Source: a virus. Taken from it: a stretch of DNA of 20,960 nt. The translations under genes were made by a program, and so were the position numbers. The notes beneath the pieces were generated by a model that ran no database searches, was not told where the DNA came from, and was given only the letters and a program-made list of their open reading frames with translations. Location: positions 1 through 20,960 of the IMG/VR virus record IMGVR_UViG_3300009165_000049; one strand, 5' to 3'. Positions 4,576 to 18,577 of this stretch are shown piece after piece; the first letter of the stretch is position 1; each line of letters opens with the position of its first letter.

Positions 4576-6312
4576 ATGAGCAAGCAAGACATAGAGAAGC
4601 GTTTGGGATTCGCGGCGCAAGGCGTGAAATCCGAGTTTGGTTCTAACGATCCGTATATGCAAGAGCGCACGGTCAAAACCCGCAAGGGCAAGACTACTGA
4701 CCTCGTTGCGGAAATTGGGCAAAACGGTGGCGGTGGCGACTATATCGCTACTTTGATGCTTGTGCATTCAAACGGAGAACCACAGGTTTTGCAATCAAAG
4801 TACGGTTACAAAACTCCTGAAAGCGCAACGCGTGCGGCAATCCGTTTGTTTGATGCTCATGTTTCTCGCGGTGGCTACGCTCGCTCTGGCTCGAAAGCAA
4901 AGATGGCCGCCCCAAAAAAGAACGTAGGTTACCTAGCCGTTACTAATTCCGAATACGCCGCCTTGGCGGCTAGTGACGCAGCAGGCAAAAGGATTTCAAG
5001 TAACTCGCAGTATCAAATTACCAGCGAAGACCGCGCAATTATGGCAGCAGGTAAAGCAGCCGCGAAGTCCGCGCTGGCACGACACGACGCATGGGACAAG
5101 GCTTGGCGCAATGCGCCAAACGATGCCGCTCGCGCAAAGGTTGAAGCTGAAGCGGAAAAAGCCGAATCCGGAATGAAGAAATATCCAGTCACAAGACTTC
5201 ATTTTGCCCGCACCAGCGCGAAGGCGAAGTTTGCAAAGCCTCAGTTCCGCACGAAAAAACTGCACAACGGATATATAGCCGTAGAGGTAAATCAAGGGAA
5301 CGGCTGGGAGAGGTACGACACTACGCACGAAGAATCTTGGAACGGAATTGAAGAGTACGAACGCGGATACCAAAAGGCGTATGACCGAGGACTTCGATAC
5401 AGCGGAGGCTCATGGCGTATTCCTAGCACCAACGCCGCCCGCCCCGGCGTGAAAGCGAATATGGGGCTAGAAATGAATATGCTGGATTTTCGGCATAAGT
5501 TTTTCACCGCATTTGGCACGGCTATTCGGGATGCAAAGAGCAATCCCAACACGGCGGAAGCGCAGTCAGACGAAACCGTGCTTCGTGAGTCATGGGCTTC
5601 CATGTTCGCGCAGGGATACTCCGACGCAATCAGCGATCTGAACGGTTTATCGGCGACAATGAAGTCCAAGACTTCGGTTGGTCAGATGCGTAAGGCTGCT
5701 TCAGACGCGATGGAAGCTTACCGTCAGGCAAAGGCCGCCGTCCGCTCCTCCCGCCCCGGCGTGAAGGCTACGTTTGGTCTTCGGGTTCCTGAATTAGAAA
5801 CCCTGTATTCGTCGCTGGGCGCAAGTGGGCAAGCCATTACAGACAAGCCATCCGCAAGGAAAGACCGCGCCTTGTTGCTTAAATTGGATGCTGAGTATTC
5901 GCAACCAACCGACACGGTGATGGTGGCATTGAATGCCGCAAAACTTTACCGTCAACTTTCCGCAGGTTCAAAAGCAACCCCGCAGGGTCAAAAGTTTCAG
6001 CAAAGGCTAGAGATTGCAGGGGGTCATAGATTTGCCCGCCCCGGCGCGAAGGCGAAGATGGCGGCGGAAATCGCATCCGATCCAAGAGACAAAGACTTTG
6101 AGAAACTCAAGACCTTGAAGGGCGTGGTACATCAGGGCAAAGGGTTTTACATCATTCCCAATAAGCTGATGACCCCCGAACGCCGAACCAAGGTGAAGCG
6201 GTCAACACAACGCTACGAACTGTCCAACATGGGCGACCTTGTCGGCTGGGGAACCAATCACCCAAACGTAAACGACTACCGCTTGAAAGACTGGGCAGAG
6301 GCTTTCGCGTGA
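4576..6312 (+). CDS. Modular repeat protein with recurring RPG-KA linkers (unknown function)
   Basis: A 578-aa protein between terminase and portal. It begins MSKQDIEKRLGFAAQGVKSEF. The tag-like GFAAQGVKSEFG (11-22) recurs as a linker: YARSGSKAKMAA (101-112), FARTSAKAKFAK (210-221), AARPGVKANMGL (287-298), SSRPGVKATFGL (391-402), FARPGAKAKMAA (486-497). The linkers separate about six dissimilar modules of 65-100 residues: some beta-like (VAEIGQNGGGGDYIATLMLV; KLHNGYIAVEVNQGNGWERYDT), some helical (369-388). Start ATG 4576 has AAAGGA eight bases upstream; earlier in-frame starts lack one. The gene looks lower in GC than terL and portal. I do not recognise modules or linker. A packaged internal protein, polyprotein or virion decoration is possible; see findings. 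Its stop overlaps the next start (GTGA). Confidence 0.85.
   Translation: MSKQDIEKRLGFAAQGVKSEFGSNDPYMQERTVKTRKGKTTDLVAEIGQNGGGGDYIATLMLVHSNGEPQVLQSKYGYKTPESATRAAIRLFDAHVSRGGYARSGSKAKMAAPKKNVGYLAVTNSEYAALAASDAAGKRISSNSQYQITSEDRAIMAAGKAAAKSALARHDAWDKAWRNAPNDAARAKVEAEAEKAESGMKKYPVTRLHFARTSAKAKFAKPQFRTKKLHNGYIAVEVNQGNGWERYDTTHEESWNGIEEYERGYQKAYDRGLRYSGGSWRIPSTNAARPGVKANMGLEMNMLDFRHKFFTAFGTAIRDAKSNPNTAEAQSDETVLRESWASMFAQGYSDAISDLNGLSATMKSKTSVGQMRKAASDAMEAYRQAKAAVRSSRPGVKATFGLRVPELETLYSSLGASGQAITDKPSARKDRALLLKLDAEYSQPTDTVMVALNAAKLYRQLSAGSKATPQGQKFQQRLEIAGGHRFARPGAKAKMAAEIASDPRDKDFEKLKTLKGVVHQGKGFYIIPNKLMTPERRTKVKRSTQRYELSNMGDLVGWGTNHPNVNDYRLKDWAEAFA
5440..6046 (+). repeat. GC-rich DNA blocks encoding the RPG linkers (first locus)
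   Basis: The block CGCCCCGGCG occurs at 5440-5449, 5752-5761 and 6037-6046, each continuing with a closely similar YGAARGC segment and coding for R-P-G-[AV]-K-A. DNA between the blocks is unrelated and more AT-rich. Earlier linkers in the same gene have diverged at DNA level. Confidence 0.75.
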
Positions 6313-7121
6313 GCCAACGCAAGGACATCATGCGCCGACTAGGCATCTTCGCCCTGCCGACAAGCAAGCGCAAGCTGACCATCGACCAAGCCGAAGCGGC
6401 GCTCAAGCGCCTTGGGTATACGCTTGACTTCCGCAGCGGGCAGACCAACCCGCCAACGTGGCAAACCTCCTACGAGGTGAAGCAGCCGAACGGCGTTGTC
6501 AAGCGCATGACGGTAGACCAGATTAAAGCCCTGATGCAGCGGTCGAGGTTCGATAGCAACTGCGGCATTGGTAAGGGCGGGTTCAAACCCGGCAACACCT
6601 GCGGCGCTGAAAGCGGCGGCGGCGGTTCGTCATCGAAGCCAAGCGACACCGTGCGCGGCATTGAAGACCGCGCCAAGGCGGCTGGGAAGTCGTTCACGGA
6701 GCAATGGCTATCGGAAACGCGCTCGGACATTACCCGCCAGTACGACCAACGCGATGCGCGGGAGGCAAAGAAGGCGGCGGACACCATTCGCAAGAAGGAA
6801 GCCGAACTCGCTGAAGTGAAGCGACAAGGCCCACAGGCACGCGCTGGCGGGTTGCCTGAAAAGGCAAAGACCATCCGCGCCCTTGAAGGTCAACTCGACA
6901 AGGCAAAGCAGGACGTGGAAACCCTACGCAAGCAGCATGAAGCCGCTGCCAAGGCAAGCGAAGCCGCAATGCGTACTATGCGCGAGAAGCGTGCAGCGCA
7001 GAACACCCCAGAGGCTAAACGCGCTGCCGACATTGCACGCTCCAACAAACAAGCCCTCAGCATGGTGAATCGAGAGCGCAAGCAGCGCGGGCTTCCACCA
7101 CTCAACAAACTCCCGGACTAA
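6309..7121 (+). CDS. Tagged coiled-coil protein with a Cys-flanked GGFKPGNT motif
   Basis: A 270-aa protein starting at GTG 6309, overlapping the previous stop (GTGA). The N-terminus MSQRKDIMRRLGIFA resembles those of the two modular repeat proteins. Residues 22-78 form a small alpha/beta domain (TIDQAEAALKRLGYTLDF... YEVKQPNGVVKRMTVDQIKALM). Then NCGIGKGGFKPGNTCG (84-99), a motif with two cysteines I have the impression of seeing in other phage head-module proteins, and a Gly/Ser linker. Residues 145-260 are a long charged coiled coil rich in Ala, Lys, Arg, Glu. It may be a structural or DNA-associated head protein; function is not assignable. Directly upstream of the portal with a 6-base gap. 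Codon choice is closer to the core genes than that of its modular neighbour. Confidence 0.8.
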   Translation: MSQRKDIMRRLGIFALPTSKRKLTIDQAEAALKRLGYTLDFRSGQTNPPTWQTSYEVKQPNGVVKRMTVDQIKALMQRSRFDSNCGIGKGGFKPGNTCGAESGGGGSSSKPSDTVRGIEDRAKAAGKSFTEQWLSETRSDITRQYDQRDAREAKKAADTIRKKEAELAEVKRQGPQARAGGLPEKAKTIRALEGQLDKAKQDVETLRKQHEAAAKASEAAMRTMREKRAAQNTPEAKRAADIARSNKQALSMVNRERKQRGLPPLNKLPD

Positions 7122-9700: not shown

Positions 9701-9725
9701 ATAAATCGCAATGGAGATCGCTACG

Positions 9726-10724
9726 ATGCACGACATGAGCAAGGAGACATTTCTTCGGCCGGATCAACTGAAGCGCGGAGTCGAGATTGAGCTGACGCAG
9801 CGCCCAGAATGGGGAACGGCATTCATCCGTGGCCGGGTTCAAGGAAAACCCCAATTATGGGATGTCTCAAAGAGCATGGACAAGCGCGGCAGATTCATTG
9901 ACGAGGATGAGCTTCTACAACATTGGAGAACACCGAATATGAGCAACACACGCAAGGAAATTGCCGCCCGTCTTGGATTTGCTGCTGGCAACGGCGCGAA
10001 GATGGCGTTTGCCCCTCAAATTGACGAAGCTGAGCAAGAATTAAAGGCTTGGACAAAGAAGCTCGGGTATTACCCTGATATGGCAAAGGTCAATATCAGA
10101 CCTAATACCGTAATGCTTTGGTTTTACGACCAAAAAGGCAAGGCAACGCAATTAGCATCAAAGCTTCGCAGCGTTGCGGCAAGCATGAATCTTTCGCCAT
10201 CCGCAATTACTTCAGAAGAAGGACGACACCCAGCGTATGACGGCGGGGCTGCTCGGGATGTTGGACAGGTGACGGTTGATTACAACCGTAGTACGAAATC
10301 CTCCCGCCCCGGCGCGAAGGCAAAATTTGAAATTTCTTCATATGAGCAAGCGGAATATCAAATTGCATTAAGTGAAGAACGCATTGCGTCTTATCGCAAG
10401 GCACTTGCAAACACCGAAGCAATGATTAGAAACGCTAACAGTTTGATGCGTACCGCTGATTCAGGTGACAAGAAAGCAATGAAAGAAGTCATTGGCATTG
10501 CGCGAATGTTGGAATCAACAATGAAATCTCGCGGTTTCTCGCGCCCCGGCACAAAGACCAGCATGACCCGCGAGCAGACCGAGGAGCAGAAGGCAGGGCT
10601 GAAGATCATGTCCGCCGCTGACCCAGCCGTCGGCGAAAAAATAGCCACCCTCATCAAAGAAGGCAAGCCACAAGACCAAGCGGTCGCAATCGCGCTCGAC
10701 ATGAAGCGCAGAGGAGAGATCTGA
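9726..10724 (+). CDS. Second modular repeat protein with RPG linkers
   Basis: A 332-aa protein. Start ATG 9726 has GGAG (9713-9716) at good distance; ATG 9711 has none. Residues 1-71 are a small domain (LKRGVEIELTQRPEWGTAFI...). Residues 72-95 (MSNTRKEIAARLGFAAGNGA and on to KMAF) match the N-terminal tag of the gene at 4576. Linkers SSRPGAKAKF (192-201) and FSRPGTKTSM (271-280) separate further modules: a charged helical module (202-270) and a C-terminal one ending VGEKIATLIKEGKPQDQAVA with IALDMKRRGEI, a short phage motif (K.GKP..QAVAIAL, similar to the end of DUF6496-type proteins). Unknown function; same family logic as the 578-aa protein 4 kb upstream. It looks lower in GC than the core head genes. 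It ends one base into the next ATG (TGATG). Confidence 0.85.
   Translation: MHDMSKETFLRPDQLKRGVEIELTQRPEWGTAFIRGRVQGKPQLWDVSKSMDKRGRFIDEDELLQHWRTPNMSNTRKEIAARLGFAAGNGAKMAFAPQIDEAEQELKAWTKKLGYYPDMAKVNIRPNTVMLWFYDQKGKATQLASKLRSVAASMNLSPSAITSEEGRHPAYDGGAARDVGQVTVDYNRSTKSSRPGAKAKFEISSYEQAEYQIALSEERIASYRKALANTEAMIRNANSLMRTADSGDKKAMKEVIGIARMLESTMKSRGFSRPGTKTSMTREQTEEQKAGLKIMSAADPAVGEKIATLIKEGKPQDQAVAIALDMKRRGEI
9925..9941 (+). promoter_or_regulatory. Internal ribosome binding site and start within the modular gene
   Basis: GGAGAA (9925-9930) lies 8 bases before an in-frame ATG at 9939, which begins exactly at the tag MSNTRKEIAARLGFA. In the two other tagged genes this tag is the true N-terminus. 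A 261-aa product from here is plausible beside the 332-aa one. Confidence 0.5.
10305..10551 (+). repeat. GC-rich DNA blocks encoding the RPG linkers (second locus)
   Basis: CGCCCCGGCG at 10305-10314 and CGCCCCGGCA at 10542-10551 code for R-P-G linkers and match the blocks at 5440, 5752 and 6037. The first is followed by CGAAGGC, as at 6037. Confidence 0.7.
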
Positions 10725-11875: not shown

Positions 11876-12906
11876 TGAGGAATCGGCTTTCAAATGTCAT
11901 TCGGAGATTCCGTAGACCCGGATTAACGGGTGGAGGATATTTCTATGACTTATACGCGCCTAACACGGCTGCTTTGACGGTTTCGGACTATCAAGCAATT
12001 CAGCAACGCACCGCGCAAACGCTTGAATTCCGACGCACCATTGTCGAAAACAACCGGATGCAATACGCGTCGCCGGGATCTCGTGTTTCGTTCCAGACGA
12101 ACGCCGAAAGGCTACGGCTGAATCTGTACTGGAACGCTGAGGTTTACAACGTCATCAGCGGAAACGCCACATTTAATGGGGTGGGATCGGTTCTATCCAA
12201 TGGAACCGAGATCGGTACATTTGATTGGTCGCAGCCCCTTGTGAAGGGATATTCAACTCCGACCTATCCTCTTGCAACGGGAACCAAGACGGTCACGATT
12301 GTTTGGCCGTACAGCGCGGGACTTCAATTGCAATCGGTAGATTTGCAGCGCGGCGCAAGCCTAGTAGCAGCAACACGGCCAGCGAACAAGATTGGCATCT
12401 GTGGAGACAGCATTTCCCAAGGCTTTGAATCTAGCAAAATCACTACGACATGGGCTTATCTTCTCGGCAACACGCAGAGCAGACAGGTCATCAACTTGGC
12501 GAATGCGGGAGTGCCAGCAGACGCAAGCCATGCGACTGCGCTTACAGGAACAGGCTGCGACCGCGTGACCTATATGATCGGGTACAACGACTTTGCATCT
12601 CAAACGGCGCTAGTGACATTTCAGAACGCCGTTCAGGGCTGGATTACCAATGCGCGAGCGGCTTTGCCTTCTGCGCGGATATATGTGATCTCGACCATCT
12701 ACTCGCCAAACACAAATACAATCACGCTAGCGCAGTATCGAAGCGCGGTGCAAGCGGCTGAACTGGCGGCTGGTGACGCAAATACGTTCTACATTGATGG
12801 TTTGTCGATTATGACAAACAACACCAATCGACTAAGCGGAACGATTCATCCAAATGACCTTGGCGCGTCCGAAATTGCTACAAACTTGCAGCCATTAATT
12901 ACATGA
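11875..12906 (+). CDS. SGNH/GDSL-family esterase of the virion
   Basis: A 343-aa protein. The C-terminal domain (about 168-343) has SGNH blocks: ICGDSISQGFES with catalytic Ser179 (block I), a glycine in NLANAGVPAD (Gly212; block II), YMIGYNDF with Asn238 (block III), and GTIHPNDLG with His325 (block V). The usual Asp three residues before the His is Gly322 here, so the triad may be a Ser-His dyad or use another acid. Residues 40-165 form a beta-sandwich that probably binds substrate. SGNH enzymes on phages deacetylate or cleave ester bonds in host surface polysaccharide. ATG 11875 lies in the preceding stop (TAATG); no ribosome site is visible, so reinitiation is likely. GTG/TTG codons at 11863/11860 are alternatives. 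It ends with ATGA overlap to the protease gene. Confidence 0.8.
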   Translation: MRNRLSNVIRRFRRPGLTGGGYFYDLYAPNTAALTVSDYQAIQQRTAQTLEFRRTIVENNRMQYASPGSRVSFQTNAERLRLNLYWNAEVYNVISGNATFNGVGSVLSNGTEIGTFDWSQPLVKGYSTPTYPLATGTKTVTIVWPYSAGLQLQSVDLQRGASLVAATRPANKIGICGDSISQGFESSKITTTWAYLLGNTQSRQVINLANAGVPADASHATALTGTGCDRVTYMIGYNDFASQTALVTFQNAVQGWITNARAALPSARIYVISTIYSPNTNTITLAQYRSAVQAAELAAGDANTFYIDGLSIMTNNTNRLSGTIHPNDLGASEIATNLQPLIT

Positions 12907-14399
12907 GCAGCATTGATCTCAAACCAACCACCGAGATGGCATCCAATGCAACCCGTGGCCTTGAGCTGCGCGAGAAGCACGGCAGGGGTGGCACGGAGAT
13001 CGGCGTAGCGCGGGCGCGTGACATCAAGAACCGGGCGAACCTGTCACCCGAAACCGTGCGCCGCATGGTGTCCTACTTCGCTCGGCACGAGGTTGACAAG
13101 CAGGGCGAGGGCTGGGGCAAGGATTCCGCTGGGTATATCGCGTGGCTCCTGTGGGGCGGCGATGCTGGCAAGGCATGGGCAGAGCGCAAAGACAAGGAAC
13201 TCGACCGCAAGGAGGAGAAGACCGTGAACGCAAAGACATCTCACACAGTCGCCGAGGATGGCGACAAGGTAATGATTGAGCGCGTCGAACTGTTCATGGC
13301 GTTTGACCCAGCCATCGACGACGGCGAGGCTGACCCGGAACTCAAGCGTTTCAACAACAAGCGCCTCAAGGACATCGTTGCATCAACGCGCAAGCACATG
13401 GCTCGCGGCTCGTTCCCCCGCCTCGTCATCATGCACGAGAAGGACGGCAAGGAACCGAAGTCCGCTGTCGGTCGATTCCCCACAATTTCCTACGAAGAAC
13501 GCGATGGAATTGGGTACATTGTGGGCGACATGGAAGTCAACCGCGATATTTTCGACCGCTTCATTGCCACCAACGCCTTCCCGCGTCGGTCGGCTGAGAT
13601 CTGGTCAGGCTCAAACCATCTATCCGAGGTGGCGTTGCTCGGGCGTGAAACCCCGCGCCGTCCCCTCCCGGACACCCATTTCACCCGCAAGGGCGAGAAG
13701 ATCACTTGTTCAAAGTCCAACCATGACCTCGTCGGGGCTGGTGGCGGACTCAATACATTCATCCCGACGACTACCAAGGAGGAGGCCAGCATGGCATCCA
13801 GCGACGATATGCGCGAGGAGTTGGAGGCCATGAAGTGCGCCATCTCCGAACTCTCGGACATGATGAAGAAGAAGTTCGCAGACGACTCGGACGACAAGGA
13901 CGAGATGGCTGAGGACGACGATGAGATGAAGGACGAGATGGCCGAGGAAGACGGTCAAGTCCACATCGACATCGAGAGCCATGACGTTGAGGCAGGCGAA
14001 GACGAAGACGAGGCGGAGCCGGTGGTCGCTAGCCGATCCACCTACGCGCTTCGCTCTGAGAACGCCCGTCTCAAGTCCCGGTTCGCTCGGCTTGAAGCCG
14101 AGTTGAAGCGCGAGAAGTTTGAGCGCGAAGTGGAGATCATGGAGCAGGAGGGCTACCGCATCCCAGACTCACAGCGCGAGGCGCTTGTTGGTCAGTTGCA
14201 GGCTTCCCGCAACCCAGTTGCTCTCCTTGAGTCATGGCGCGACCTGTTCGCCCGCGACCCAATCGGAACCAAGATTGATATGAGCCGAGCAGCCCTGCCG
14301 CGTGGCATGGACATTGGTGACGTTGGCTCACTCGTCAAGCAATTTGCTGGCAAGCCTGAAGAGTTTGCCCGTGCAATCAACTCCCGAATGAAGGGATAA
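12903..14399 (+). CDS. Prohead protease-scaffold fusion protein
   Basis: A 498-aa protein with three parts. Residues 15-95 are a conserved phage domain (TRGLELREKHGRGGTEIGVA, NLSPETVRRMVSYFARHEVD, IAWLLWGGDAGKAWA). Residues 122-257 resemble assembly proteases of the herpesvirus-assemblin/Mu gpI kind: LVIMHEKDGK with candidate His178, VGRFPTI, FPRRSAEIWSG with candidate Ser230, and the closing HLSEVALLGRETPRRPLPD (239-257). Residues 297-498 are an acidic then coiled-coil scaffold (D/E-rich 326-372; helix 383-417). The junction has GGGLNTFIP (280-288), matching the capsid protein N-terminus. Such fusions template the prohead and are then proteolysed. ATG 12903 overlaps the esterase stop. Catalytic residue assignment is by pattern only. 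Confidence 0.8.
   Translation: MSSIDLKPTTEMASNATRGLELREKHGRGGTEIGVARARDIKNRANLSPETVRRMVSYFARHEVDKQGEGWGKDSAGYIAWLLWGGDAGKAWAERKDKELDRKEEKTVNAKTSHTVAEDGDKVMIERVELFMAFDPAIDDGEADPELKRFNNKRLKDIVASTRKHMARGSFPRLVIMHEKDGKEPKSAVGRFPTISYEERDGIGYIVGDMEVNRDIFDRFIATNAFPRRSAEIWSGSNHLSEVALLGRETPRRPLPDTHFTRKGEKITCSKSNHDLVGAGGGLNTFIPTTTKEEASMASSDDMREELEAMKCAISELSDMMKKKFADDSDDKDEMAEDDDEMKDEMAEEDGQVHIDIESHDVEAGEDEDEAEPVVASRSTYALRSENARLKSRFARLEAELKREKFEREVEIMEQEGYRIPDSQREALVGQLQASRNPVALLESWRDLFARDPIGTKIDMSRAALPRGMDIGDVGSLVKQFAGKPEEFARAINSRMKG
13791..14399 (+). CDS. Nested free scaffold protein from an internal start
   Basis: AAGGAGGAGG (13776-13785), a near-perfect ribosome binding site, precedes an in-frame ATG at 13791 (residue 297 of the fusion). 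It would make a 202-aa protein (MASSDDMREELEAMKCAISE...) consisting only of the scaffold part. The layout matches lambda C/Nu3 and herpesvirus UL26/UL26.5, where the scaffold is made in excess from within the protease gene. The acidic segment and coiled coil support the scaffold role. That it is expressed is inferred. Confidence 0.7.
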   Translation: MASSDDMREELEAMKCAISELSDMMKKKFADDSDDKDEMAEDDDEMKDEMAEEDGQVHIDIESHDVEAGEDEDEAEPVVASRSTYALRSENARLKSRFARLEAELKREKFEREVEIMEQEGYRIPDSQREALVGQLQASRNPVALLESWRDLFARDPIGTKIDMSRAALPRGMDIGDVGSLVKQFAGKPEEFARAINSRMKG

Positions 14400-14826: not shown

Positions 14827-15864
14827 ATGGCCTATGTGACAGTCGGAGGCGGTCTAAACACTTACGTCCCCTCCACCAACGCGCTTGCAACCGGCGCTCT
14901 TCAGGTTGAGTTCACCCGTGCGGTGAATTCGTTTGCCATCACCCGTTACGCCCAAATCGTCGCCTGCAATCAAATGACGGGGTACTACCTCCGTCTTGAT
15001 TCGGACGACAACGTCCGCGTCTCAAACGAAAACGAATTTATCTGGCCTCTTGGCAACGACCGCCCGGTCGGCAAGATGAACCAGCACGACTTCGTTACGT
15101 TCACCGCGCAGCGTTACGCGTTCCCGTTCTACATCCCAAACGAAACCGTCAAGCAAGCCGCGTGGGACATCGTTGCCCAGCACGCTCGCAGTAAGGCGCA
15201 GCTCGCTATGACCGCTCGCTCCATGCGAACGGCTACCGCGCTGACCAACTCCACAGCTGTGGCCGCATTCACCTTAGCGGGCAACTATCAGGCTCTTGGT
15301 AGTACTTGGAAGGGCGTTTGGACGGCTTCGTCCACTAACGTCATTCAGGCAAGCATCCAAGACGCGCTCCAGCGCATCTCGCTTGCTACTGGTGGCGCGG
15401 TTCGTAGTGAAGACATTTGCATGGTCATTAGTCCGACCGTTGCAAATATCATCTCACAGGCGGACGAAATCCGTAACTATGTGAAGAACTACCCAGCGGC
15501 CTTGCCGTTCCTTCAGGGTTCGGACATCTTCTCCCGTTACGGCCTCCCGCCGAATCTGTTCGGCGTTTCGGTTGTCGTTGACGACTCGGTCAAGGTGACA
15601 AGTCGCAAGAACAACGCAGTTGCAGGTACTCGTTCGTTCGTGTACGGCAACTCGGCAATCTTCGTGAGCCGCCCCGGTGGCTTGGTTGGTGTCGAAGGTT
15701 CGACCTCGTTTAGCACCTGCCAGATCTTCGCCTTTGAAGATATGACGGTCGAGAACTGGGACGATCCGAAGGATCGCCGTATTGAAGGTCGCGTCATTGA
15801 CACAAGCACCTCGGAATTGGTTTCCCCAATCTCTGGGTTCCTGTGCGCCAACGTCACGGGCTAA
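14827..15864 (+). CDS. Major capsid protein
   Basis: A 345-aa protein in the expected place after scaffold and decoration genes, with a consensus ribosome site. Features consistent with a HK97-like capsid protein: FTRAVNSFAITRYAQIVACN (29-48), EFIWPLGNDRPVGKMNQHDF (70-89), RYAFPFYIPNETVKQAAWDI (96-115), a helical AMTARSMRTAT, and a C-terminal domain with FGVSVVVDDSVKV and FAFEDMTVENWDDPKDRRIE, as in unusual capsid proteins of several environmental phages. Residues 7-17 are GGGLNTYVPST, repeated almost exactly at the protease/scaffold junction. The protein has no long delta-domain before it, so separate scaffold is needed, agreeing with the upstream gene. Followed by a strong hairpin. Confidence 0.85.
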   Translation: MAYVTVGGGLNTYVPSTNALATGALQVEFTRAVNSFAITRYAQIVACNQMTGYYLRLDSDDNVRVSNENEFIWPLGNDRPVGKMNQHDFVTFTAQRYAFPFYIPNETVKQAAWDIVAQHARSKAQLAMTARSMRTATALTNSTAVAAFTLAGNYQALGSTWKGVWTASSTNVIQASIQDALQRISLATGGAVRSEDICMVISPTVANIISQADEIRNYVKNYPAALPFLQGSDIFSRYGLPPNLFGVSVVVDDSVKVTSRKNNAVAGTRSFVYGNSAIFVSRPGGLVGVEGSTSFSTCQIFAFEDMTVENWDDPKDRRIEGRVIDTSTSELVSPISGFLCANVTG

Positions 15865-15883
15865 TTCTTCAGCCTCTCAGGAT

Positions 15884-15917
15884 GAGGGTGGTGGGGACTT
15901 CGGTTCCCACCACCCTC
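15884..15917 (+). terminator. UUCG-capped 15-bp hairpin after the capsid gene
   Basis: GAGGGTGGTGGG (15884-15895) pairs with CCCACCACCCTC (15906-15917); three further pairs (one G-U) close a TTCG loop at 15899-15902 with C-G. It starts 19 bases after the capsid stop. After it comes TCTAGG, not a T-run, so it may be a partial terminator or a 3' stabiliser giving extra capsid mRNA relative to tail genes. Confidence 0.65.
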
Positions 15918-15931
15918 TCTAGGCGGAACCT

Positions 15932-16426
15932 ATGACCGCATACGCCACCTACGCCGATTTGGAGTCCGCGCTCGATGCCCAGATCATTGCACAACTGTGC
16001 AGCGACCTCGGTAGCCCTATGCTCGGCTCCAACCCGGTCACGACGCACGCGCTAGAACGCGCTACAGGGATTGTGCAGGCGTACACGCGTGTAGGCGGCA
16101 TCTACACCGATTTGGATTTGACGACGCTCTCAGCGGCTCGTGACCCCCTGCTGATGACGCTCGTTGTTGACTTGGCGGTTGAGGCGCTCTTTCAGCGTCG
16201 CGCCATGAAGATTACCCCAGCCGTTGAGCAGCGCTTAAAGCAGGCGTACTCCATGCTGGAAGCACTCCGGGACGGGAAGATGATATTCGGGGCGCTTGCT
16301 AAGGCAGCAGAAGCAGGCTTGCCAGCGGTGCAGGCTACCCCGGCGATGACCAACGCTTGGTATAACGGCGTCAGCACGAGCGCCTTCTTCCGCCCTCGCC
16401 TCCCGAACACGATGCCGGGGAGCTGA
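15932..16426 (+). CDS. Head-tail connector protein (Mu gp36-like, DUF1320 type)
   Basis: A 164-aa protein. The pattern MTAYATYADLESALDAQIIA, then ALERATGIVQAYTRVGGIYT, DPLLMTLVVDLAVEALFQRR and VEQRLKQAYSMLEALRDGKM is that of Mu gp36-like (DUF1320) or gp6-like connector proteins, which form a ring below the portal. The C-terminal 40 residues are looser. Position after the capsid gene and before the tail completion gene agrees. AGGCGGA before ATG 15932 serves as ribosome site, just beyond the hairpin. The stop is one base from the next start (GTG 16428). Confidence 0.75.
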   Translation: MTAYATYADLESALDAQIIAQLCSDLGSPMLGSNPVTTHALERATGIVQAYTRVGGIYTDLDLTTLSAARDPLLMTLVVDLAVEALFQRRAMKITPAVEQRLKQAYSMLEALRDGKMIFGALAKAAEAGLPAVQATPAMTNAWYNGVSTSAFFRPRLPNTMPGS

Positions 16427-17862: not shown

Positions 17863-18116
17863 CAAGGGGAGTTGCCCAATTCTTGGCAACCTACGGACGG
17901 CTCCCCTCAGACTTTGACGAAAGTACAGCGATGGGACTAGCGCAGAACATCCCCATGATTGAAGCGCGTCAGTCTCTTGTATTCGCGCAAGGCATTGCCA
18001 TTGCTTTCGGATCGCCAGAACTGACCGAACACACCATCCGCATGGCGACAGGAAATAGCGACCTCGCGTTCCGTGTTCGCATGAGCATGGAACACCAAAA
18101 GGCGGCAACGCTATGA
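17608..18116 (+). CDS. Tail assembly chaperone fusion by -1 frameshift (GT-like)
   Basis: Translate 17608-17859 then, after a one-base backward slip, from C17859: total 169 aa, with the junction ...VEQAGN-LTRGVAQFLATYG. The second frame has no ATG near its beginning and no stop between the slip site and 18116; its only nearby start (TTG 17883) has no ribosome site, which argues that it is reached by slippage. The T-like part (LPSDFDESTAMGLAQNIPMI, then an amphipathic helix) recruits the tail tube in lambda-like systems. The end overlaps the next ATG (ATGA at 18113). Confidence 0.8.
17853..17859 (+). promoter_or_regulatory. Slippery heptamer for -1 frameshifting
   Basis: G GGA AAC, in register with the zero frame (GCG GGA AAC TGA), a canonical X-XXY-YYZ site close to lambda's G GGA AAG. 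Both tRNAs can re-pair in the -1 frame (GGG, AAA). The stop codon follows at once, which usually raises the slip rate. Confidence 0.88.
17865..17907 (+). promoter_or_regulatory. Stem structure downstream of the slippery site
   Basis: AGGGGAG (17865-17871) pairs with CTCCCCT (17901-17907), and inside it GTTGCC (17871-17876) with GGCAAC (17885-17890); G17871 can serve only one of them. The outer stem begins 5 bases after the heptamer, the spacing normal for frameshift stimulators. Pairing is seen; stimulation is inferred. Confidence 0.65.
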
Positions 18117-18577
18117 CCGTTCAAAGCAATTCAGGAATTTGGATTGAGCTGCGGAATCAAATTCGCAACTGGATGACGGCTCGCGGCTACGGCGATCAGG
18201 TCTACTTGGCTGAGAAGCCAACGGATGACATGGTTGCGCAGTACGCAGTACAAATCGTCCCATCAGGCGACGCGGCTCTACACCCCCGTAGTGGCGTTGG
18301 TCTGCTTGAGGCAACGATCAATATAACGGTCTGGTGGCGCGGGCTACTCGATCACACGAGCCAAGCGACCGAGCGCATTGCCGGGGAAGAAGGCATTGAG
18401 CAGTTTATCGACGGGCTGCGCACGCTCTTGATCCAGAACACGCTCGGCGGTCGCCTGACCATCCCGCTCACATGGCGCAGCGGTGGGCAGATCGAAGCGG
18501 TAGACGAAGCGGTCGGCTGGATGCGCGGCACGGAGACTTTCCTGTGCGCCTTTGAAATGACGTGGGAGGTTCAGTAA
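18113..18577 (+). CDS. Tail-joining protein, possibly tail terminator
   Basis: A 154-aa alpha/beta protein: SGIWIELRNQIRNWMTARGY, DMVAQYAVQIVPSGDAAL, GLLEATINITVWWRGLLDHT and ETFLCAFEMTWEVQ. The order helix, strand, strand, final strand resembles tail terminator proteins (lambda gpU-like) and other tail completion folds. In most siphoviruses the terminator is upstream of the tube; here it would be between chaperones and tape measure, so the role is tentative. The start overlaps the chaperone stop (ATGA), the end overlaps the next ATG (TAATG). Confidence 0.5.
   Translation: MTVQSNSGIWIELRNQIRNWMTARGYGDQVYLAEKPTDDMVAQYAVQIVPSGDAALHPRSGVGLLEATINITVWWRGLLDHTSQATERIAGEEGIEQFIDGLRTLLIQNTLGGRLTIPLTWRSGGQIEAVDEAVGWMRGTETFLCAFEMTWEVQ

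Follow-up and report, generated by a model that had tools for sequence, protein, structure and literature searches.

Two genes of the window (the whole stretch of DNA analysed here, a 20,960-base virus record) are arrays of small protein modules joined in frame by a recurring linker, and it is well supported that whole modules are exchanged as cassettes at these linkers. With somewhat better than even confidence, it is proposed that such in-frame exchange at linker DNA builds a multi-effector chain that is associated with the phage head and probably ejected. In this mechanism, genes A and B would be arrays of in-frame cassettes, each a small module joined by a linker, and the near-identical linker DNA at each joint would let co-infecting phages recombine there. 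Annealing at the linkers, most likely by the phage ERF protein, would swap, add or drop whole modules while keeping the reading frame. The array product would be made alongside the head proteins and would reach the head through an N-terminal tag or through end domains of PHROG 2859 or 2423; packaging, and ejection together with the DNA, would probably follow, and a host-takeover or counter-defence chain would then be first to enter the cell.

If this is true, these phages carry a stock of small, exchangeable host-directed proteins that a single recombination event can re-set, and the fast turnover of phage cargo would be tied to a concrete, testable DNA feature. The linker would represent a natural standard in-frame joint for protein modules, and the 194 module families would form a large candidate source for phage counter-defence, with the domain borders already marked.

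Architecture of the arrays

Gene A is an uninterrupted ORF (4576-6312, 578 aa) that comprises an N-terminal tag, six modules and five linkers (Table 1), and its N-terminal GFAAQGVKSEFG is related to the linkers. The earlier note had described this gene as modules split by a recurring linker and had placed the same linker twice in a second gene; both descriptions hold, the second gene being gene B (ORF 9711-10724), an array with a tag, two modules, a C-terminal domain and two linkers. The linker pattern did not occur in 2000 shuffles of the gene A protein; since it was drawn up after the linkers had been seen, and thus defined from the linkers themselves, recurrence in relatives is stronger evidence than the shuffle test. 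Genes A, B and C have similar N-terminal tags, that of the gene B array being also given as MSNTRKEIAARLGFAAGNGAK.

Table 1. Positions of array and head-gene features in the window; M numbers are families of the first clustering (160 families, 135-protein set)
Feature	Position	Strand	Remarks
Terminase	3069		
Gene A N-terminal tag MSKQDIEKRLGFAAQGVKSEF, half-linker at its end	4576..4638	+	kept in IMG/VR relatives with differing next modules
Gene A module 1, M41	4639..4878	+	also in L006, L007
Gene A linker 1, ARSGSKAKM	4879..4905	+	
Gene A module 2, M38	4906..5205	+	also in L004, L100
Gene A linker 2, ARTSAKAKF	5206..5232	+	
Gene A module 3, M8	5233..5436	+	seven copies, seven contexts
Gene A linker 3, ARPGVKANM	5437..5463	+	CGCCCCGGC at 5440
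Gene A module 4, M63	5464..5748	+	also in L154
Gene A linker 4, SRPGVKATF	5749..5775	+	CGCCCCGGC at 5752
Gene A module 5, M64	5776..6033	+	also in L004
Gene A linker 5, ARPGAKAKM	6034..6060	+	CGCCCCGGC at 6037
Gene A module 6, M100	6061..6309	+	sole member in the set; gene ends without a closing linker
Gene C	6309..7121	+	start RLGIFA (6336-6353) like the tags of A and B; rest varies among relatives
Mu-type portal	7128		
MuF-like protein	8618		
Gene B tag MSNTRKEIAARLGFAAGNGAKMAF	9939..10010	+	from internal Met at 9939 (ORF opens at 9711)
Gene B module 1, M3	10011..10301	+	predicted compact helix-strand-strand-helix-strand-strand domain; AF2 pLDDT 87.7, pTM 0.80
Gene B linker 1, SRPGAKAKF	10302..10328	+	CGCCCCGGC at 10305
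Gene B module 2, M11	10329..10538	+	six copies, six contexts
Gene B linker 2, SRPGTKTSM	10539..10565	+	CGCCCCGGC at 10542
Gene B C-terminal domain, PHROG 2423	10566..10721	+	closes many other arrays too
GDSL-like protein	11860		
Putative head protease/scaffold	12903..14399	+	N-terminal domain PHROG 2859
Putative major capsid protein	14827		name, like that of the protease/scaffold, from context and partial or weak matches

In predicted secondary structure, four of the five gene A linkers lie in coil and the fifth is partly helical. An AF2 model of the whole gene A protein, made from 13 sequences, gave no single continuous fold, and with a pLDDT of 38.8 it is too poor to count or to judge domain independence. 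Alignments A1, A2, A3 and A5 were left out of the models because fragments were misplaced at linkers. For gene B module 1, neither PDB nor BFVD had a fold match with E ≤ 0.001 as the threshold (the best VIA Z was 7.7), and no function is therefore assigned to it.

Several smaller features accompany the arrays. In gene B of the window, L003 and L023, about 68 in-frame residues (9711-9938 in the window) stand ahead of the tag Met, and the other gene-B relatives in the comparison have MEIATMHD or a near variant immediately ahead of MSNT. Gene C occurs in two forms, of 80 and 270 aa; an insert of about 95 aa follows its RLGIFA tag immediately in L012 and L023, and L022 stops after it, an arrangement that resembles a third slot. 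Met ends 182 of the 327 counted linkers (e.g., 4879-4905 and 6034-6060), one scan having selected for Met, and the consensus ahead of the linker-final ATG is AAGGCGAAG; it is conceivable that translation starts internally at modules from this ATG.

Relatives and module families

A scan of IMG/VR by protein found 22 loci, 14 of which aligned over the first 18-24 residues only because the downstream sequence differs. Two scans with linker patterns, in which Arg was fixed as CGN and any third base was allowed for Pro, Gly and Ala, yielded 65 and 117 stretches that partially overlap with the protein-scan set, and one scan of GTDB genomes yielded a single contig, L088, which is phage-like and belongs to the genome assembly of a member of the Nitrospiraceae. 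The linker motif, which the earlier note suggested looking for in related phages, is therefore present in many of them rather than absent. A 33,686-base IMG/VR contig (L003) has an identical gene A; it was removed before counting together with the other window copies (L001, L002, L068) and contained duplicates, which left 135 non-redundant linker proteins (from 205 raw) with 447 modules. At least two modules are present in 118 of the 135 proteins (range 1-9, some proteins being cut by contig ends). The array phages are freshwater phages with one or two arrays each, among head genes. In INPHARED, neither gene A (E up to 1) nor gene B from the tag onward had a match, the nearest cultured portals are 22-28% identical (10 records), and these INPHARED and portal searches found no close cultured relative.

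The largest family of the first clustering (81 members) was over-merged via a common C-terminal domain, so the modules were re-clustered at 75% coverage. This stricter clustering, which left out 24 of the 447 modules (<30 aa after trimming), grouped 423 modules into 194 families, 111 of them with a single member, and Chao1 puts the module pool at about 385 families. In 42 of the 52 families with at least three members, every copy has a different pair of neighbours, and 267 of 288 ordered module adjacencies are distinct. The species group of the window has 35 families in slot A (16 phages) and 22 in slot B (17 phages), with seven in both. Redundancy between arrays A and B of one genome is not avoided (1 shared family vs 1.0 expected, 13 phages).

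Exchange of whole modules

The portal gene is nearly complete in 15 relatives; over their 105 pairs, the median portal identity is 94.6%, and yet on average just 21% (0.21) of the smaller gene-A family set is in common. For example, the window has six gene-A modules and L004 four, with three in common. Where copies of one module have unlike neighbours, their nucleotide identity is 88-99% as far as the linker and 21-35% past it; within the linker, identity is mixed to high. This edge test covered 82 right and 188 left edge pairs from a 69-protein set, pairs within a family not being independent, and a pair qualified if the 60 nt of module beside the edge were at least 85% identical and the neighbours came from different families. 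Since different neighbours were required, low identity beyond the linker is expected; what is informative is the position of the change, i.e., homology between module copies stops at the linker. That whole modules are exchanged there is nearly certain.

The linker DNA

The linker unit is about 27 nt long with the consensus TCC CGC CCC GGC GCG AAG GCG AAG TTT/ATG, and 24 positions of its profile carry one bit or more. Arg-Pro-Gly is written as CGC-CCC-GGC (CGCCCCGGC) in 155 of 192 cases, vs 5.5% expected from the module codon use of the same genes, and the Pro codon is CCC in 92% of RPG linkers vs 26% in modules. Because only CGN was allowed for Arg in the scan patterns, the count is somewhat biased at Arg; no constraint was placed on the third bases of Pro and Gly. 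Counted by lineage bin with one linker per junction, the CGC-CCC-GGC shares are 83/98, 72/80, 63/79, 76/85 and, in the window, 5/5, with 3.6-11% expected over the five bins. For the control peptides RLG, GKPQ, PNCVP and QAVAIAL of these same proteins, which differ in length, the commonest codon string accounts for 16, 39, 25 and 21%, respectively.

Within the window, this 9-mer is found only at its five linker positions (Table 1), and the opposite strand of the window has no copy. The 183 kb of linker genes contain 364 sense and 4 antisense copies and the 792 kb outside them 50 and 43 on the two strands, a density about 32 times higher inside than outside. A Chi-like genome-wide hotspot was rejected since the 9-mer is rare and strand-symmetric outside linker genes. 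The distant L088 (portal identity 40%) has linkers with another continuation, among them SRPGEPDRF and SRPGKPDTF, both of which retain TCCCGCCCCGG. The uniformity of linker DNA could come from selection on the DNA or from homogenisation via repeated exchange; alternatively, it could arise as a side effect of linkers being carried along with the modules.

The modules as proteins

Internal modules are mostly 55-170 aa long, and they have a median pI of 9.2 and lack Cys in 93% of cases (n = 342). The median dN/dS is 0.25 (337 usable pairs, 59 families), with 54 of the 59 families below 0.5 and none above 1, i.e., the modules are under purifying selection.

Some modules equal stand-alone phage proteins. 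When 20 array proteins, covering 90 of the 160 families of the first clustering, were searched against PHROGs, near full-length matches besides the end domains were found to PHROG 9437 (3-98 of 98) and 7884 (3-63 of 66), and a weaker one to 29181 (7-56 of 59); the remaining matches are to parts of larger families, and the majority of the searched modules had no match. The last residue of a 100-aa protein of Rhizobium phage RHph_Y52 aligns with the residue preceding a linker, and the first Met of a 66-aa protein of PspYZU08 aligns with a linker-final Met. Homologues of the PHROG 7884 type are gene 1 or gene 3, upstream of the RNA polymerase, in the T7-like phages PspYZU08 and UFJF_PfSW6; in T7, Ocr is encoded at the corresponding early position ahead of the RNA polymerase. 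Not all homologues of this module are early genes, some lying elsewhere and one carrying the annotation of a putative lysis protein. For two other modules, homologues are found among small unannotated genes of RHph_Y52, RcPeripeteia, Paride and Milano.

No Pfam match above the curated cut-off was obtained for ten array proteins (57 of the 160 families of the first clustering), and PADLOC gave no more than two marginal matches with ten array proteins; accordingly, no searched module has a known counter-defence function. In a separate observation, residues 615-661 of the protein at L016:1667-4108 form a short module (CWEGYEAVGTKKKDGKTVPNCVP) like segments of cyanophage and other phage proteins, and the whole L016 query has matches in 268 INPHARED records and several PHROGs.

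Head-gene context and fate of the array product

At least one head gene is present in 110 of the 112 linker-gene loci, the remaining two being only 1.5 and 2.2 kb long. The usual order is TerL-[array]-portal-MuF-[array]-protease/scaffold-MCP, i.e., there are two slots; exceptions are L034, L070 and L144, with two array genes in one slot, and L029, with an array beyond the terminase gene. The head association that the earlier note had favoured for gene A from its location is thus supported, the arrays lying mostly in two slots of the head cluster. The PHROG 2859 domain of the protein encoded at 12903, which we take to be a protease/scaffold from its sequence appearance and not from a library match, also opens linker proteins in several other lineages, and it stands at the start of a Roseobacter phage protein that carries a major capsid annotation. 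The L088 portal terminates in a PHROG 2859 domain and a EGYPQDQAVAIA segment like PHROG 2423. The sequence GGGLNT(F/Y)(I/V)P(T/S) is common to the putative protease/scaffold (13740-13769) and the putative major capsid protein (14845-14874), a pair that also occurs in L088 and is possibly a scaffold-capsid contact.

The placement among head genes, together with modules that are like stand-alone proteins (one of them early), would be best explained if the arrays were virion cargo. The array product is likely an ejected, head-associated cargo, which the tag or the end domains may target to the head, and host takeover or counter-defence is a plausible function of the modules.

For the linker, the earlier note had put forward sites for the prohead protease, a docking sequence or hinges of a packaged cargo protein, and each of these may hold. 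The cargo reading is compatible with a prohead-protease polyprotein, in which the linkers are cleavage sites and the head protease frees separate internal proteins at maturation; cut sites being safe places to join modules, exchange at the linkers would then be expected. We regard such cleavage as a real possibility, though less likely than not: the slot B arrays adjoin the protease/scaffold gene and some share its N-terminal domain, gene-A arrays of relatives usually finish with a closing linker, and the module size is close to that of mature T4 IPI* (76 residues, according to the available part of PMC3012670), but several residue positions of the linker vary and its fixed synonymous positions are left unexplained. 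The latter also weighs against a role in docking or capsid targeting, for which repeated basic RPG-KAKF copies would bind a head protein or DNA and retain the chain in the prohead. Although the motif and most modules are basic and genes A, B and C have similar tags, docking appears rather unlikely, the tags varying among lineages while the linkers stay similar. Finally, the arrays may encode a structural filler, an inner scaffold or core protein with changing modules that have no action in the host, as their position in the head cluster and the lack of known module functions would allow; purifying selection inside families and the identity of modules with stand-alone proteins of other phages, one early in two T7-like phages, make this improbable.

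Comparison with known phage systems

The cargo reading invites comparison with polyvalent proteins, which occur in phages and conjugative elements, have 2 to 15 domains per polypeptide and are likened to polyproteins by the authors, who propose packaging and injection (Iyer et al. 2017, PMC5512222, in the excerpts available). The arrays likewise are multi-domain single chains (118 of 135 with at least two modules), and the phage members of the polyvalent proteins are encoded beside portal, terminase or MuF genes as the arrays are beside head genes (110 of 112 loci). Unlike polyvalent proteins, for which the same excerpts list recognisable activities (peptidase, ART, RNase, 2H, InPase and others), the arrays have small unannotated modules and a single linker whose DNA hardly varies; neither 'linker' nor 'shuffl' occurs in PMC5512222.

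T4 internal proteins are described in the accessible parts of PMC3012670 and PMC12373910 as small, highly diverse and injected, with a conserved N-terminal segment, and each of Ip1-3 inhibits one GmrSD subtype (PMC12373910). The arrays likewise carry small, diverse units, and the similar starts of genes A, B and C may be a counterpart of that segment. T4 internal proteins are encoded by separate genes and mature by proteolysis, whereas the array modules are fused via linkers and swapped inside one ORF. Since the arrays fail or leave open defining features of both T4 internal and polyvalent proteins, they are not filed as members of either; they may represent a variant that would work like both, as one chain with exchangeable links.

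The arrays also resemble domain mosaicism, the ongoing exchange of protein fragments between phages, with anti-defence proteins among those named in the available part of PMC10684548. The terms 'linker', 'internal virion', 'ejection' and 'recombination sites' have no occurrences in that text, so a common joint sequence appears undescribed there. A literature search with limited subscription and bioRxiv coverage did not turn up this linker or arrays of this kind.

Recombination at the linkers

Recombinases were surveyed in 12 long records picked from the loci, some of which may be fragments. ERF, an annealing recombinase, is present in 10 of the 12 and RusA in 11; both are common in phages, so their presence is circumstantial. 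For the two other recombinase families covered, neither a tyrosine integrase nor a serine resolvase was found in the 12 possibly incomplete records. According to the accessible parts of De Paepe et al. (PMC3945230), Rad52-like phage recombinases, an Erf among those tested, tolerate divergence, and the minimum homology for Red-beta is 30 bp. As the linker length is near this minimum, annealing by ERF could suffice, and the phage ERF annealing protein is the most likely agent of exchange.

Integrons and MARTX toxin effectors are also arrays of exchangeable units behind a constant part. In integrons, separate genes are exchanged and an integrase is involved; MARTX are long toxins with their own protease, and neither is known to have a fixed in-frame DNA linker. 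The exchange pattern of the arrays would fit units that move singly at a common sequence, as in integrons, if the linker is the recombination site, but the 12 records, possibly fragments, were without a tyrosine recombinase. A bolder proposal, which is held only tentatively, is that the linker DNA is a selected recombination sequence and that an integron-like pool of several hundred modules supplies a combinatorial in-frame chain that is loaded into the virion and delivered before gene expression.

A dedicated site-specific, integron-like system, in which a further recombinase acts at the linker, seems distinctly improbable in view of the negative survey of those two families in the 12 possibly incomplete records and of a linker near the 30-bp Red-beta minimum (PMC3945230, in part), at which annealing could suffice. 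It would account for homology stopping within the linker and for the near-invariant core with its short dyad CGCC-CC-GGCG, which was noticed by eye. Fusion of modules from different strains by assemblers at a short repeat is a very improbable cause of the arrays: the linker repeat is common to many strains and all arrays but L088 are from metagenome-derived virus contigs, but a 27-nt repeat is shorter than the usual sequencing read, 21 arrays in 17 contig groups are identical from first to last linker in at least two IMG datasets (samples possibly shared), and the arrays of L088, which was assembled separately as part of a genome, are built in the same way.

In L175, the contig of L003, ERF, RusA and a Dam-type DNA methyltransferase are encoded within about 3.5 kb (14965-15744, 15837-16391 and 17920-18432).
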